Below are positions 24,075 to 38,744 of a stretch of DNA of 64,000 bases, in pieces. The notes under the pieces are model-generated. The model saw only the letters and a list, made by a program, of their open reading frames with translations. It was not told where the DNA came from and searched no databases. Positions within the stretch are counted from its first letter, which is position 1; each line of letters opens with the position of its first letter. A program made the position numbers and the translations under genes. Source of the stretch: Pseudomonadota bacterium (GTDB lineage Bacteria; Pseudomonadota; Gammaproteobacteria; Burkholderiales; JABEVD01); contig JAJZTQ010000003.1 of assembly GCA_021848825.1 (NCBI GenBank), forward strand, positions 1 through 64,000, read 5' to 3'.

Positions 24075-24449
24075 CTATTCTAGATGTTTTTTCAATGTTC
24101 GCCTGAACAACAGGGCGTAAGCGGACAAATTGCAGAACAGCACGACCAATCCCAGGGCGATTCTGGCATTCGCTCCGAGTTCTCCAGGATAAAGCAGGGA
24201 AAGGATGTGATGCTCGACGAAGCTTTCCTTGTAGGCGGTCATGCCTTGCCTTTCTATCAGCCATTTCTCGAGAGGCGTCAGGGGACAGGCAATGTTTCCG
24301 AATTCCACCGCCATGGCCCATATCGCAGCCGGAATCTGTATCCAGAGCAGCTTTTTCCATCTGAAGGAGAAGAGTGCGCCGAAAAGCGCGAAAAGGACGA
24401 ACAAAAAGTGGAGAATTACGACAAATTCGGCGAGAATCGCATAGTTCAT
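24075..24449 (-). CDS. DUF2784 membrane protein
   Basis: The 124-residue protein with three to four membrane helices fits DUF2784: ILHFLFVLFALFGALF, a WIQIPAAIWAM segment, CPLTPLEKWL, and the YPGELG motif before the last helix. The function of the family is unknown. Its start codon shares the CATG of the divergent kinase gene (24447-24450), leaving no room for separate promoters outside coding DNA if both starts are right. Confidence 0.85.
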   Translation of the reverse strand: MNYAILAEFVVILHFLFVLFALFGALFSFRWKKLLWIQIPAAIWAMAVEFGNIACPLTPLEKWLIERQGMTAYKESFVEHHILSLLYPGELGANARIALGLVVLFCNLSAYALLFRRTLKKHLE

Positions 24450-26781
24450 GATTCATTCTAGTCGAAAGGTGCAATTGGCAACAGATCTAACGACCATCGG
24501 ACGATTCGAGGTCGAGAAGCTCCTCGGCGAAGGGGGGCAGGGAAGGGTTTATCTCGCAAAGGATCCCCGTCTCGGCAGGGAGGTCGCGATCAAGGTGATC
24601 GCAGCCGATGCCATATCGAAAGGCTTGCTCGAAGAAGCGAGGATCGTGGCGAAGCTGAGGCACCCCAATATCGTTACGCTGTACGACGCAGGCGAATCGG
24701 CGGGCGAGCCTTATCTCGTTTTCGAGTATGTGGAAGGCGTGACGCTGGCCCAGGAAATATCGCAGGGTCCGGTTTCAGTCAGCAAGGCGGTTTCGATCGC
24801 GCTCCAGATCCTGGAAGGCCTTGCCTGCGCCCATGCCCAGAACATTTTGCACAGGGACATCAAGCCTGCGAACATCATCATCGACCGCAATGGTGTGCCG
24901 AGGATCATGGATTTCGGCATTGCGCAGAGCATGAATGCGCCGCATGCTGCCACGGAAATCATGGGTTCCCCGCTTTACATGGCGCCTGAATATGCTTCAT
25001 CCGGCTTATCGGGCCCTCAGGCCGACATTTTCTCGGTGGGAATGCTGCTTTACGTCATGCTGACAGGAAAGCATCCGGTGCAGGGCACGACGGCGGATGA
25101 AATAATGAAAAGCATTGCGAAGGTTCCTGTTCCCGCCCCTTCCGGCATGAGTCCATCAATCGACGAGAAGCTCGACAGCATCGTCCTGAAGGCACTCTCG
25201 ATCGATCAGGCCGGCCGCTACCGGGATGCGGCCACCATGATCGCGGAATTGAAGGCCTACAGCGAGCCTGTCCATGTCAGGGGTGAAGGCAAGCAGAGCA
25301 CCCTCGAATTCCTGCTGAGGAGAATGAAGCACAAGTCCGACTTTCCTGCGCTCTCCCAGGCGATCAGCGCGGTCAACAAACTGGCCGCATCCGACAGGGA
25401 AAGCGTGTCGAATCTCTCGAATGTCATACTGAGGGATTTTTCGCTGACCAACAAGCTGATCAGGCTTGTCAATGCTGCGACCTACAGCCAGTTCGGCGGC
25501 ACCATCAGCACTGTTTCCCGCGCCATAGTCATACTCGGATTCGATACCGTCAAGAACGTCGCCATCACGCTGATCCTTTTCGAGCACCTTCAGAACAAGT
25601 CGCAGGCCTCCCGGCTGAAAGATGAAATCATTTCAACCTTTTTCAGCGGCGTCCTGGCGAGGGAGCTTGCTCCCCATGTCAAGTTCAAGAATGCCGAAGA
25701 GGCATTCATCTGTGCCATGTTCTACAACCTGGGGAAGCTTCTGGTCGCTTTCTACTTTCCCGAAGAGGCGCTCGAAATCGAGCGCCTGATGGAAAAAATG
25801 GAAGAGGAGAAGGCAGCCCTGACAGTGCTCGGCTTGACTTTTGAAGAGCTCGGCGTGGGGGTCGCTCAGAGCTGGCATTTCCCGGACCGGATCGTATCCA
25901 GCATGAGGAAAATCCACGGGGATACCGTCAGGAAGCAGGAATCCGAGACAGGCATGCTGAGGGTGCTGACCAATCTCTCGAATGAATTGCGGGGGATCGC
26001 GCAGCGGGGCAACAATCACGACAAGACGGAAGAGCTCGAGGCGCTCGCATCGAAGTATCAGGCCTTGGCCCTGTCGGAACGGACGCTCGGGCATGCCATC
26101 GAGGATTCATTGAAGGAATTCATGGTCGAAACGAGGATACTCGGTCTGGATGCAAGGGAGAGTTTCTTTCTGAAGAAAGTCAATCAATGGTCGGGTTCGA
26201 AAAAGCAGCTGGACACTGCGGAAGAAGTCTTCCAGAAAACGATCAAGGCCGAAGTCACGATGGAAAAGGCCGATGCGGCTGCCATGCTGACCATCGGACT
26301 CCAGGATGTGACCAATGCCCTGGTCGAGGGATACGACCTCAACGACCTGCTTCGCATGGTGTCTGAGACCATCTACAGGAGTATGGGGTTTTCACGGGTG
26401 GTGCTGGCCATCAAGGATTCCAGTCAGAACGTCATGGCAGGCAGGTTCGGCTTCGGCGAGAAATCCGAAGAAGTCATGAAGCATTTCAAATTCCCCATTT
26501 CGAAGCAGAAGGATGTATTTCTGGTCGCACTGACCCAGGGGGTTGACATCCTCATTTCGGACATCGATGCAGAGAACATCAGGGAAAGGATCCCCTCCTG
26601 GTACCTCAAGAATATCGACGCGAAATCATTCCTGCTTCTTCCCATCATTGTCGACAAGCGGCAGGTGGGCCTGCTCTACGCGGACAGGTTGAAGGCGGGG
26701 CTCTCGATCGAGGCGAAGGAGCTCGCCCTGCTGAAGACCATGAGAAATCAGGCCGTTCTCGCGATCAAGCAGAAGCTTTAG
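24448..26781 (+). CDS. Ser/Thr protein kinase-HDOD-GAF fusion protein
   Basis: Three modules are visible in 777 residues. An N-terminal Hanks-type kinase has the GEGGQGRV glycine loop at 27-34, K49, HRD at 135-137 and DFG at 155-157, so it looks active. An HDOD domain spans about 295-500 (SNLSNVILRDFSLTNKLIRLVN…, AIVILGFDTVKNVAI). A C-terminal GAF-like domain covers about 615-775. No membrane segment is seen, so it is cytoplasmic, unlike PASTA kinases. The ATG at 24448 overlaps the divergent DUF2784 start; GTG at codon 8 or TTG at codon 10 (24475, after AAAGGTG) are alternatives that would free the overlap. Confidence 0.9.
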   Translation: MIHSSRKVQLATDLTTIGRFEVEKLLGEGGQGRVYLAKDPRLGREVAIKVIAADAISKGLLEEARIVAKLRHPNIVTLYDAGESAGEPYLVFEYVEGVTLAQEISQGPVSVSKAVSIALQILEGLACAHAQNILHRDIKPANIIIDRNGVPRIMDFGIAQSMNAPHAATEIMGSPLYMAPEYASSGLSGPQADIFSVGMLLYVMLTGKHPVQGTTADEIMKSIAKVPVPAPSGMSPSIDEKLDSIVLKALSIDQAGRYRDAATMIAELKAYSEPVHVRGEGKQSTLEFLLRRMKHKSDFPALSQAISAVNKLAASDRESVSNLSNVILRDFSLTNKLIRLVNAATYSQFGGTISTVSRAIVILGFDTVKNVAITLILFEHLQNKSQASRLKDEIISTFFSGVLARELAPHVKFKNAEEAFICAMFYNLGKLLVAFYFPEEALEIERLMEKMEEEKAALTVLGLTFEELGVGVAQSWHFPDRIVSSMRKIHGDTVRKQESETGMLRVLTNLSNELRGIAQRGNNHDKTEELEALASKYQALALSERTLGHAIEDSLKEFMVETRILGLDARESFFLKKVNQWSGSKKQLDTAEEVFQKTIKAEVTMEKADAAAMLTIGLQDVTNALVEGYDLNDLLRMVSETIYRSMGFSRVVLAIKDSSQNVMAGRFGFGEKSEEVMKHFKFPISKQKDVFLVALTQGVDILISDIDAENIRERIPSWYLKNIDAKSFLLLPIIVDKRQVGLLYADRLKAGLSIEAKELALLKTMRNQAVLAIKQKL

Positions 26782-30549: not shown

Positions 30550-30576
30550 TAAAGTAGACGCTTATTCGGCCGATAA
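30550..30576 (+). promoter_or_regulatory. Sigma-28 (FliA) type flagellar promoter
   Basis: TAAAGTAG (30550-30557), an 11-base spacer and GCCGATAA (30569-30576) match the FliA consensus TAAAGTTT-N11-GCCGATAA with a perfect -10 and six of eight bases at -35. It lies 40 bases before the start of the methyl-accepting chemotaxis protein, the kind of gene normally transcribed by sigma-28. Confidence 0.82.
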
Positions 30577-30615
30577 CAGAAGGATAGACAAGCCTTCATC
30601 ATAAACGGGGACATC

Positions 30616-32247
30616 ATGGGGAAGTGGTTTTCTGCTTTGAGCATACGCTGGAAGTTTCAGCTTGGTTTCTTCATCGTCACGATGGTCACGACGATCTACA
30701 ATCGGGTGCTTGCCGCCCATGAGCTTGAAAAACTGGTGGTCATGGCAAGGGAAAGTCATGTCGCTTCTTCCGTCGTCGCCCAGCTGGAGGCGAATCACGC
30801 TGCCTATATTTTCAACTCGTTCTGGGAGTCCGGAATCGAGTTTTTCCTTCAGTTCATGCTGATCGGCTTCGTTGCCAATCTTTTCGTCAAGCCCATCAAG
30901 GGGCTTTGCGATGCGCTGAAGGCGGTTGAAAAAGGGGATCTCACGCGCGGTGTCGAAGAAACGCAGCATGACGAAATAGGCGTGCTTCAGCACAGCTTCA
31001 ACGACATGCTGAACAAGCTGAACGAAATCATGCGGAACATAGAGGAAAACGGCAAGCAGATGGGGCAGTCGGCCTATCAGATCGCCACCGTTTCCCATCA
31101 GATCGCAGAGATAGGGAAGGAAGAAAACAGCAGGTCGATGGAGGCGACGCTTGCGACGGAAGAATTGAAGAAGATTTCGGAAATGGTGCAGAATCAGGCG
31201 ATGGAGGCGAGTGCACGCGCCGAGAACACGGAGAGCCAGGCAAGAGAAGGCATCGAGATCGTGAAAACCAGCATCGCCAGAATGGAAGACACGGTCCATC
31301 AGGTTCACCGGGCGGAAGCGGAGATCCAGGAGCTTCAGCAGGCTGCGAACCAGATTCACAACATCATCTACACGATACAGGCCATTGCCGAGCAGACCAA
31401 TCTGCTTGCGCTCAATGCAGCAATAGAGGCGGCGAGGGCTGGTGAATCGGGAAGAGGATTCGCCGTCGTGGCTGACGAAGTCAGGAAGCTTGCGGAAAAG
31501 ACTGGCAGTTCTGCGGGAGAAGTCTCTGCCATCATAGGCGGCCTGAGCGGAAAGGTCGGGCAGGTCACGTCGACCATGCAGACCGTGGTCCAGGAAGTGC
31601 ATGCGAGCCAGGAAAAGGCCAACGAGACGGCTTCAGTGATCGATCTCATGGCAACAAACGTCACCGAAACGGCGAAAGCCAACAACAGCATATCGGAAGT
31701 CAGCAACGTCCAGATGGAGAGGCTGCAGTTCATGGAGGATACGCTGAAAAAGCTCTTCCAGACGCTCAGCGAGAATTCTGCAAAGGTGGAAACGACAGCC
31801 CATATCGGGGACAGCCTTTTCGAGGTGACCGAGAGCCTGAACCGGCTGATGAAGGGATTCGTTTTCACCCATCATGAAGAAATGGAAAAAACGGATTTCG
31901 ACAAGCGGCGTCATCCCAGGATGCACCACACCTTGCTCGTCAACGTGAGGCAGGGGGAAAGGGAAATCGAGTCGCTCGCCAAGGATTTCAGCCTGACCGG
32001 CATGAAGCTGATCGTTCCGGAAGGCGTCGATCCCGGAAAGAACATCGATCTGGAGATACTCGTTCCCTATGACGATCACGATGCCTACATGAATCAGGAT
32101 CCATTGCGGCTCTCGGGCAGGATAGTCTGGGCGAGGCGCGAAGGGGAAGGGCATCTCTACGGCGTCGAATTCCTCAATCAGGGAGAGGCGCAGAAGAGGC
32201 AGATCAAACACTGCTTCGAGTTCTACAACAAGAAGGCTGAATATTAA
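30616..32247 (+). CDS. Methyl-accepting chemotaxis protein with C-terminal PilZ domain
   Basis: The 543-residue protein has two membrane segments (about residues 12-30 and 75-92) with only about 42 residues between them, so there is no folded periplasmic sensor domain. A HAMP-like segment follows, then a long signalling coiled coil with the conserved tip [19 protein letters not shown] at about 258-276. The C-terminus is a PilZ domain with both c-di-GMP motifs: RRHPR near 432 and DFSLTG near 457. The design suggests a receptor that tunes chemotaxis by c-di-GMP or an internal cue. A sigma-28 promoter precedes it. No cheA, cheW or flagellar genes are in the window. Confidence 0.94.
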
Positions 32248-34278: not shown

Positions 34279-34758
34279 ATGAAGGCAGTTCTGTTTGTTC
34301 TCTCGTGGTTACTTGCAGGTGCGGCCACGGCGGCTTTTCGTGCCTTCCTCCTGAGCGGCGTGGTCGTCGATTCGGGAAATGCGAAAAGGCTGGAACGTTT
34401 CACCCGCCTGCTTTCAGAAAAGGCGAATTATCCGATGCATGTCGTTTATCCATCGAGCTATACCGAGCTTTCGAACCTCCTCAGGGAGCATCCTGAGTCG
34501 GTAGGCCGGGCATTCATCGCGCCTGCGGACGAATATGCCCGGGTCGAATATGCAAAGGCTCATCCTGAAGCGCCAGACAAGTTGCAGATCATTGAAAGGC
34601 TAGGGCCTTTTCCTTTTACGCCTGACGTCGCAGGGCTTCACACCATAGCCGAATTCGTCGAATCGCAGGAAATACTGGATGCGCTCCAGAGAGTCGGCGT
34701 GGACTTTGCGCAGGGTGATCACATCCAGAGACCGGAGCCGTTGTCGTGTCCGGGATGA
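34279..34758 (+). pseudogene. Collapsed remnant of a PhnD-sensor/EAL-type signalling gene
   Basis: An uninterrupted 159-codon frame, but its parts belong to a much larger protein. Residues 1-19 look like a signal peptide. Residues 20-76 resemble the first lobe of PhnD-type periplasmic binding domains (FRAFLLSGVVVDSGNAKRLE, VVYPSSYTELSNLLREHPE). Residues 77-117 (HPEAPDKLQIIERLGPFPF) may come from a later part of that lobe pair. Residues 119-155 are the last helix and strand of an EAL domain (TIAEFVESQEILDAL, VDFAQG, IQRPEPL). In-frame internal deletions, removing any GGDEF and most of the EAL, would explain this. It cannot be a cyclic-di-GMP enzyme; whether it is expressed is unknown. Confidence 0.6.
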
Positions 34759-37988: not shown

Positions 37989-38744
37989 TCATTCTGCAAG
38001 GAGCCCAGCCACGAGGATGGAACCTATGCCGAGGGAAATCAGCACGACCTGCTGTATCGTGGCATGGATTTCGGTGCGCTTGTGCAGCCCGGGAATGAGG
38101 TCGGCGACCGAAACGTAAATCATCGAGGAGGCGGCGAGCGCAAGAAGCGAAGGAATCAGATTCTGCATGGATTGCAGGATGGAATAGGCGAGCACGCCGC
38201 CTATCAGCGTCGCTCCGCTCGAAGCCACATTGAAAAGGATGGCCTGCCGCTTGGTATAGCCTGAATGAAGCAGAATCATGAAATCCCCGACTTCCTGGGG
38301 GATCTCATGGGCGATGATGGCGATCGCCGTGACGAGCCCGAGATGGATGTCGCTCAAAAAGGCCGCCGAGATCAGGATGCCGTCGACGAAATTGTGGAAG
38401 GTGTTGCCGATCATGATCATGAGGCCGCTTCTGCCGTGATCGTGCGATTCATGCGCTTCGCAATGCTCGTTGTGGCAGTGGCGCCAGAGCACCAGCTTTT
38501 CCAGGATGAAAAAGAGCATGATCCCGAAGAGGATGGTGGCGGTCATCATGCCGGGATTTTTCGTGAGCCTGAAGGCTTCCGGCAGGATTTCGAGAAACGC
38601 TGCGCCGAGAAGCGCGCCCACCGCATAGCTCACCAGCATCGGCACCCATGTTGCCGAGAGGCTCAAGGCGAAGGATCCCGCGAGCAAGAGGCTCGCAAGC
38701 CCCCCTACGGTGCTCGTCGTCACGATCCAGGATAAGACTGACAT
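37989..38744 (-). CDS. ZIP-family metal transporter
   Basis: The 251-residue inner-membrane protein has about eight helices. The cytoplasmic histidine-rich loop HCHNEHCEAHESHDHG lies between helices 3 and 4. Helix 4 carries GNTFHNFVDG and helix 5 HEIPQEVGD, the paired metal-site motifs of ZIP proteins, which import zinc, iron or manganese. It resembles the ZupT/GufA branch. It lies in the minus-strand run rluD-pgeF-ZIP-rimO. Confidence 0.93.
   Translation of the reverse strand: MSVLSWIVTTSTVGGLASLLLAGSFALSLSATWVPMLVSYAVGALLGAAFLEILPEAFRLTKNPGMMTATILFGIMLFFILEKLVLWRHCHNEHCEAHESHDHGRSGLMIMIGNTFHNFVDGILISAAFLSDIHLGLVTAIAIIAHEIPQEVGDFMILLHSGYTKRQAILFNVASSGATLIGGVLAYSILQSMQNLIPSLLALAASSMIYVSVADLIPGLHKRTEIHATIQQVVLISLGIGSILVAGLLAE

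Follow-up and report, generated by a model that had tools for sequence, protein, structure and literature searches.

How does a chemoreceptor with hardly any sequence outside the membrane receive its signal, and how is it tied to swimming? This question is raised by a gene on a 64,000-nucleotide stretch of bacterial DNA (hereafter, the window; C48:1-64000 of a 2.74-Mb assembly in 55 contigs), whose product carries a C-terminal PilZ domain. The features of the gene and its product are shown in Table 1. HAMP, MCPsignal (PF00015) and PilZ (PF07238) were all found above the Pfam cut-offs (E = 1.5e-10, 7.8e-36 and 1e-17, respectively). Hydropathy analysis revealed two peaks, at residues 16-34 (mean 1.50 over 19 residues) and 73-91 (1.85), the first of which corresponds to a helix of marginal hydrophobicity (family mean 1.28). 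The RWK ahead of this helix agrees with the positive-inside rule. Between the two helices, about 38 residues would lie outside the membrane, close to the value of about 42 given in the original prediction, and the PilZ tail with RRHPR and DFSLTG that had been read from the sequence could also be located. The AlphaFold model of the receptor, based on 61 sequences (mean pLDDT 85.8, pTM 0.49), contains a helical hairpin (helices 10-46 and 51-105), followed by long helices over residues 120-412 and then the PilZ barrel. When the PilZ part was modeled separately (pLDDT 80.1), residues 417-426 formed a badly ordered joint; the whole joint between the receptor coil and PilZ comprises 15-20 residues.

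Table 1. Features of the receptor locus and FliA-type boxes of the genome. Plain coordinates refer to the window.
Feature	Position	Strand	Basis or context
FliA (sigma-28) type box TAAAGTAG-N11-GCCGATAA	30550..30576	+	39 nt ahead of receptor ATG
PilZ chemoreceptor gene, 543 aa	30616..32247	+	Intact ORF; family of 61
Membrane helix 1, ~residues 14-33	30655..30714	+	Hydropathy (marginal), AlphaFold helix 10-46, conservation
Short extracytoplasmic hairpin, ~residues 34-72	30715..30831	+	Two helical arms, turn 47-50; hydropathy, AlphaFold model, conservation
Membrane helix 2, ~residues 73-95, with invariant E75	30832..30900	+	Hydropathy, AlphaFold model, conservation
HAMP domain, residues 85-136	30868..31023	+	Pfam
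MCP signaling domain, residues 227-372 (extent of Pfam match)	31294..31731	+	Pfam, model
PilZ domain, residues 429-534	31900..32217	+	Pfam, PilZ model, fold matches
RxxxR motif (RRHPR), residues 431-435	31906..31920	+	Sequence, alignment of 61
[D/N]xSxxG motif (DFSLTG), residues 457-462	31984..32001	+	Sequence, alignment of 61
Genome box match 1	Before MCP C13:122628-124280		
Genome box match 2	C19, before flgM then flgN		flgM start 25 nt past box
Genome box match 3	Before MCP C10:23779		
Genome box match 4	Before receptor 30616-32247		
Genome box match 5	Before flagellin C19:18671		

A profile built from the N-terminal 105 residues of each of four orthologues was used to search a species-level genome collection and identified 60 loci, all of them complete (538-553 residues); together with the window protein, the family analyzed here has 61 members. 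MCPsignal and PilZ were matched in all 61 and HAMP in 59, and every member contains both the RxxxR and the [D/N]xSxxG motif. The titles of these loci include Gallionella, Sideroxydans, Sulfuricella, Rhodocyclaceae, Methylophilaceae, Ectothiorhodospiraceae and Marinobacterium, several being given just as Proteobacteria. Among 399 genomes sampled from the order, the profile matched 13 (one match per genome, all with E <1e-39 and none weaker down to 0.001), and the PilZ motifs were present in each. The class sample gave matches in 8 of 369 genomes, namely, the window genome, five further members in which the PilZ motifs were read (L148-L152), and L147 and L153. L147 was rejected as a PilZ-less member, as its frame is cut off where the locus stops (2721 bases) and the PilZ region would lie beyond, and L153 (E = 5.5e-4, no MCP in the frames inspected) was rejected as a chance match. 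It should be noted that the receptor is patchy even in its own genus (three of nine genomes, some of them incomplete). Judged by sequence, these proteins are a distinct chemoreceptor family with a fixed architecture, in which the outside sensor is reduced to a small conserved hairpin; no description of this family was found in the literature at the level of titles and abstract openings.

With regard to the PilZ domain, R431, R435, S459 and G462 are invariant in all 61 members and most other positions drift, which, as expected, is the pattern of a conserved nucleotide site. The best fold matches of the PilZ model (Foldseek E about 1e-5; Z 11-13 over ~100 residues) were MapZ with CheR1, MotI/DgrA, the PilZ domain of cellulose synthase, VCA0042 and Alg44, and several of the matches hold bound c-di-GMP. 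A sequence search of the PDB with the PilZ part gave no match at E 0.1. In addition, 10 PilZ and 48 GGDEF matches were identified in the genome. The motifs, the fold and the number of GGDEF matches are all consistent with the earlier suggestion of c-di-GMP as the signal, and the predicted PilZ domain of the receptor likely reads this nucleotide. A loss of c-di-GMP binding, with the domain retained as a protein-contact module, would agree with the wide variation of its sequence outside the motifs, but is very unlikely given that both motifs have been kept in 61 of 61 members while the rest of the domain drifts.

Several PilZ proteins, such as YcgR, MotI/DgrA and MapZ, link c-di-GMP to motility or chemotaxis. 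They share the PilZ fold with the receptor but are free-standing, whereas PilZ is fused to a receptor here. The resemblance to MapZ of Pseudomonas raises the possibility that the tail acts on CheR, c-di-GMP leading to binding of the methyltransferase and hence to altered methylation of neighboring receptors. The MapZ-CheR1 structures 5y4r and 5xly are among the best fold matches, and CheR is present in the genome, where it adjoins the first of two CheA clusters together with CheD and CheB. However, such a fold is common to PilZ domains in general, no solved chain was matched in sequence by the PilZ part at E 0.1, and MapZ works as a separate protein; we regard this mechanism as quite improbable.

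PilZ-containing chemoreceptors are already known, and the receptor is set apart from them because its input end differs, whereas the working parts are the same. In a report (PMC6406031) and a review (PMC13401364), Tlp1 of Azospirillum brasilense is described with a periplasmic sensor and PilZ, and Aer of the same species (AZOBR_p280026) as PAS-TM-HAMP-MA-PilZ, both being aerotaxis receptors with PilZ tails; the sensitivity of Tlp1 in oxygen gradients is reportedly set by c-di-GMP (PMC6406031). On this basis, the receptor resembles Tlp1 as a membrane-anchored MCP with a C-terminal PilZ domain but has only a short outside segment in place of the periplasmic sensory domain, and it shares with Aer a pair of membrane helices followed by HAMP, MA and a PilZ domain at the C terminus, whereas no N-terminal cytoplasmic PAS domain such as that of Aer was found by Pfam. 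The third example, Cbp1 of Azorhizobium caulinodans, is a soluble MCP-PilZ protein that binds c-di-GMP with a KD of 14.9 uM and whose RxxxR mutant fails to restore chemotaxis (PMC6454048). Cbp1 shares the MCP and C-terminal PilZ domains with the receptor but lacks a membrane region, whereas the receptor has two hydrophobic helices, the first being marginal.

The conservation of each region was measured as the mean frequency of the commonest residue among the 61 members. Values of 0.81, 0.63 and 0.71 were obtained for residues 25-33, 34-73 and 74-95, respectively, compared with 0.60 and 0.59 for the two coil arms and 0.48 for PilZ. Residues 8-15 and 17-24 served as search patterns and are biased in this respect, whereas R30, W70 and E75, which are invariant across all members, lie outside these patterns. 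Thus, the original conclusion that a tiny loop makes an internal input likely goes too far: such an input is not the sole reading because the hairpin (0.63-0.81) exceeds PilZ in conservation and contains invariant residues. A membrane or periplasmic input may also reach the receptor via the hairpin.

We give a serious, although less than even, chance to the possibility that the hairpin is the main sensor, responding to membrane, redox or proton-motive state or to a small ligand, and that PilZ with c-di-GMP sets the gain only. Such gain-setting would parallel what is reported for Tlp1, and the aerotaxis function of both Tlp1 and Aer points in the same direction. The hairpin and the second helix are conserved above PilZ, with three invariant residues outside the search patterns, and the module was unseen in any other architecture among the 399 order genomes because 13 of 13 matches carry MCP together with the PilZ motifs. 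On the other hand, with a value of 0.63, the loop itself barely exceeds the coil arms, and conservation may reflect helix packing alone. Moreover, no known sensor could be recognized: no Pfam family was found on the membrane hairpin part in the 61 members, and a sequence search of the PDB with the first 95 residues gave no relative at E 5. A coincidence detector, in which the hairpin (R30, W70, E75) would read membrane state or respiration and PilZ would read c-di-GMP, both meeting at HAMP so that flagellar behavior is set there, is conceivable for this widespread family but rather doubtful.

We also considered whether the receptor had lost its methylation sites, using the textbook motif, which was absent from the window protein and four relatives. 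This idea was rejected. The strict motif was found in 11 of the 61 family members and, among the other MCPs that the genome encodes, in 5 of 11 (the twelfth, L010, was not recovered), and a degenerate pair appears in the aligned columns. E or Q occupies both positions 170 and 171 in 43 of 61 members, the window protein having E169-E170-N171 instead, and Q366, which is in the same hairpin layer as the 170/171 pair, is present in all 61.

The FliA-type box ahead of the receptor gene had been described as a near-perfect promoter. Compared with the FliA consensus, taken as TAAAGTTT-N11-GCCGATAA, it has two mismatches; the description holds for the -10 part, whereas the -35 part fits less well. Although no other match occurs in the window with three or fewer mismatches, the box is by itself not beyond chance, because shuffling the window yielded at least one match at this threshold in 20 of 100 cases. 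Likewise, the box counts show no genome-wide enrichment, since only 7 matches were found in the whole genome at up to three mismatches versus 19 for a backwards control. Five of the seven stand just ahead of motility or chemotaxis genes (Table 1), and the remaining two are inside unrelated genes (a hexapeptide transferase-like and a methyltransferase-like frame).

We then scored the best FliA-like box (out of 16) in the 150 nt upstream of each family member. A score of at least 13 was reached by 9 of 61 receptors versus 0 of 516 neighbor ORFs, a control in which starts are mechanical guesses and some ORFs may be spurious, and a score of at least 12 by 16 of 61 versus 6 of 516; the other 45 receptors scored below 12. 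When 250 nt were scanned, 9 of 61 reached 13, whereas the expectation from shuffled sequences was 0.3 and the reverse strand gave 1 of 61. L119 (Mangrovitalea sediminis M11-4), which alone among the 60 loci is titled as a strain, reached a score of 10 and thus lacks a good box. The receptor's box becomes convincing because of the positions of the other boxes in the genome and the enrichment across the family, and FliA control appears likely in this genome and in part of the family.

Flagellar genes, whose presence was to be checked, could indeed be identified in the genome: FliA is encoded at C19:53807 (TIGR02479, 284.7 bits, cut-off 189.6), accompanied by the anti-sigma factor FlgM, flagellin and FlgN. 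The proposed tie to flagellar assembly is thus supported by fliA itself, by the boxes that precede the genes for flgM, flagellin and two further MCPs, and by the family enrichment. A gene for YcgR lies in the flagellar cluster (L130:10863-11627; genome C19:24863) and represents a second entry point of c-di-GMP to motility.

Flagellin was also examined in other carriers of the receptor. Flagellin_N, which may match hook-associated proteins as well, was detected in 273 of the 399 order genomes, receptor and flagellin counts being taken as from the same genomes on the agreement of their handles. It occurred in 12 of 13 carriers versus 261 of 386 non-carriers (Fisher 0.048). Flagellin was further found in 50 of 50 carriers taken by locus handle (50 of the 60 loci), six of which look identical to order-sample genomes in size, match numbers and best E-values. 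Among the 57 distinct carriers obtained by pooling, 56 have flagellin (Fisher 3e-8), a value uncorrected for relatedness and set against the order sample alone, with some carriers belonging to other orders. The sole carrier without flagellin, the genus-mate G004, has an assembly of 170 contigs that is 96% complete.

The genome has 13 MCP matches, and its second CheA adjoins CheZ and two CheW-receiver proteins (CheV-like). Over residues 106-396, the receptor coil aligns gap-free with L002, the MCP neighboring this second CheA, whereas comparison with L001, the MCP neighboring the first CheA, revealed symmetric 14-residue differences at 224 and 316, that is, two heptads per helix. The matched stretch is also 18 residues longer in the receptor than in the E. 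coli-type MCP I (6s1k). Receptors of the 40H class have two heptads more per helix than 36H receptors. These comparisons suggest that the receptor may belong to the 40H length class and may be coupled to the second CheA, a loose assignment because similar tips are found in other MCPs encoded by the genome. As a separate observation, an MCP with PAS and HAMP_2 adjoining the first CheA (L129:9013-11112; genome C13:114513) has a WxxF-like C-terminal tail, a type of tail that may tether CheR.

FlmB of Comamonas testosteroni reportedly has a role in biofilm formation. It has been assigned to the 40H class, apart from the other receptors, and this, together with the presence of two CheA clusters, would be compatible with a receptor whose chemosensory output is not flagellar but, for instance, biofilm formation. 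Nevertheless, the FliA box of the receptor, the flagellin in nearly all carriers examined and the location of CheZ with the CheA that adjoins L002 make this quite improbable.

The explanation that we favor, and consider reasonably probable, is that the protein is a chemoreceptor anchored in the membrane and produced along with the late flagellar genes, which would enter the flagellar chemosensory array and allow c-di-GMP to bias it. This explanation is built on sequence motifs and precedent. PilZ would be located at the end of a long coiled coil, whose hairpin would return it near HAMP and the membrane. Binding of c-di-GMP to RxxxR and DxSxxG may tighten the flexible joint of 15-20 residues after the coil, and the tightened joint might alter the packing of HAMP or the coil and, in turn, CheA activity. 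In this way, an increase in c-di-GMP would adjust swimming at the level of the array, YcgR acting at the motor, and the conserved membrane hairpin would serve to anchor and pair the receptor and may provide a further input. If this is true, many environmental beta- and gammaproteobacteria would have c-di-GMP control within their chemosensory array, in addition to YcgR at the motor. The receptor would also offer a stripped-down case in which the effect of c-di-GMP could be measured without interference from a large ligand-binding domain, and a good candidate for a minimal membrane sensor is provided by its conserved hairpin.

Finally, we analyzed the neighborhood of the receptor at the 61 loci. 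A conserved operon was considered and rejected: a YoaA-type helicase gene lies 3' of the receptor in the window and two genus-mates only, and even the commonest neighbor family is present at 10 of 61 loci. Because this top family is so infrequent, the neighborhood says little on the function of the receptor. A ZIP-transporter gene is found directly 3' of the receptor in 7 of the 60 other loci; in the window, such a gene is located ~6 kb from the receptor (37989-38744, minus strand). The window also encodes a Ser/Thr kinase fused to HDOD and GAF (24448-26781, plus strand), relatives of which adjoin the receptor in the genus-mates L061 and L062, both titled as metagenome assemblies. A 159-residue ORF at 34279-34758 (plus strand) showed a weak match to a phosphonate-binding domain at residues 77-128, below the cut-off, and residues 118-152 matched the final 35 positions of an EAL domain, just below the cut-off. 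This ORF may represent what a deletion has left of a larger EAL protein.
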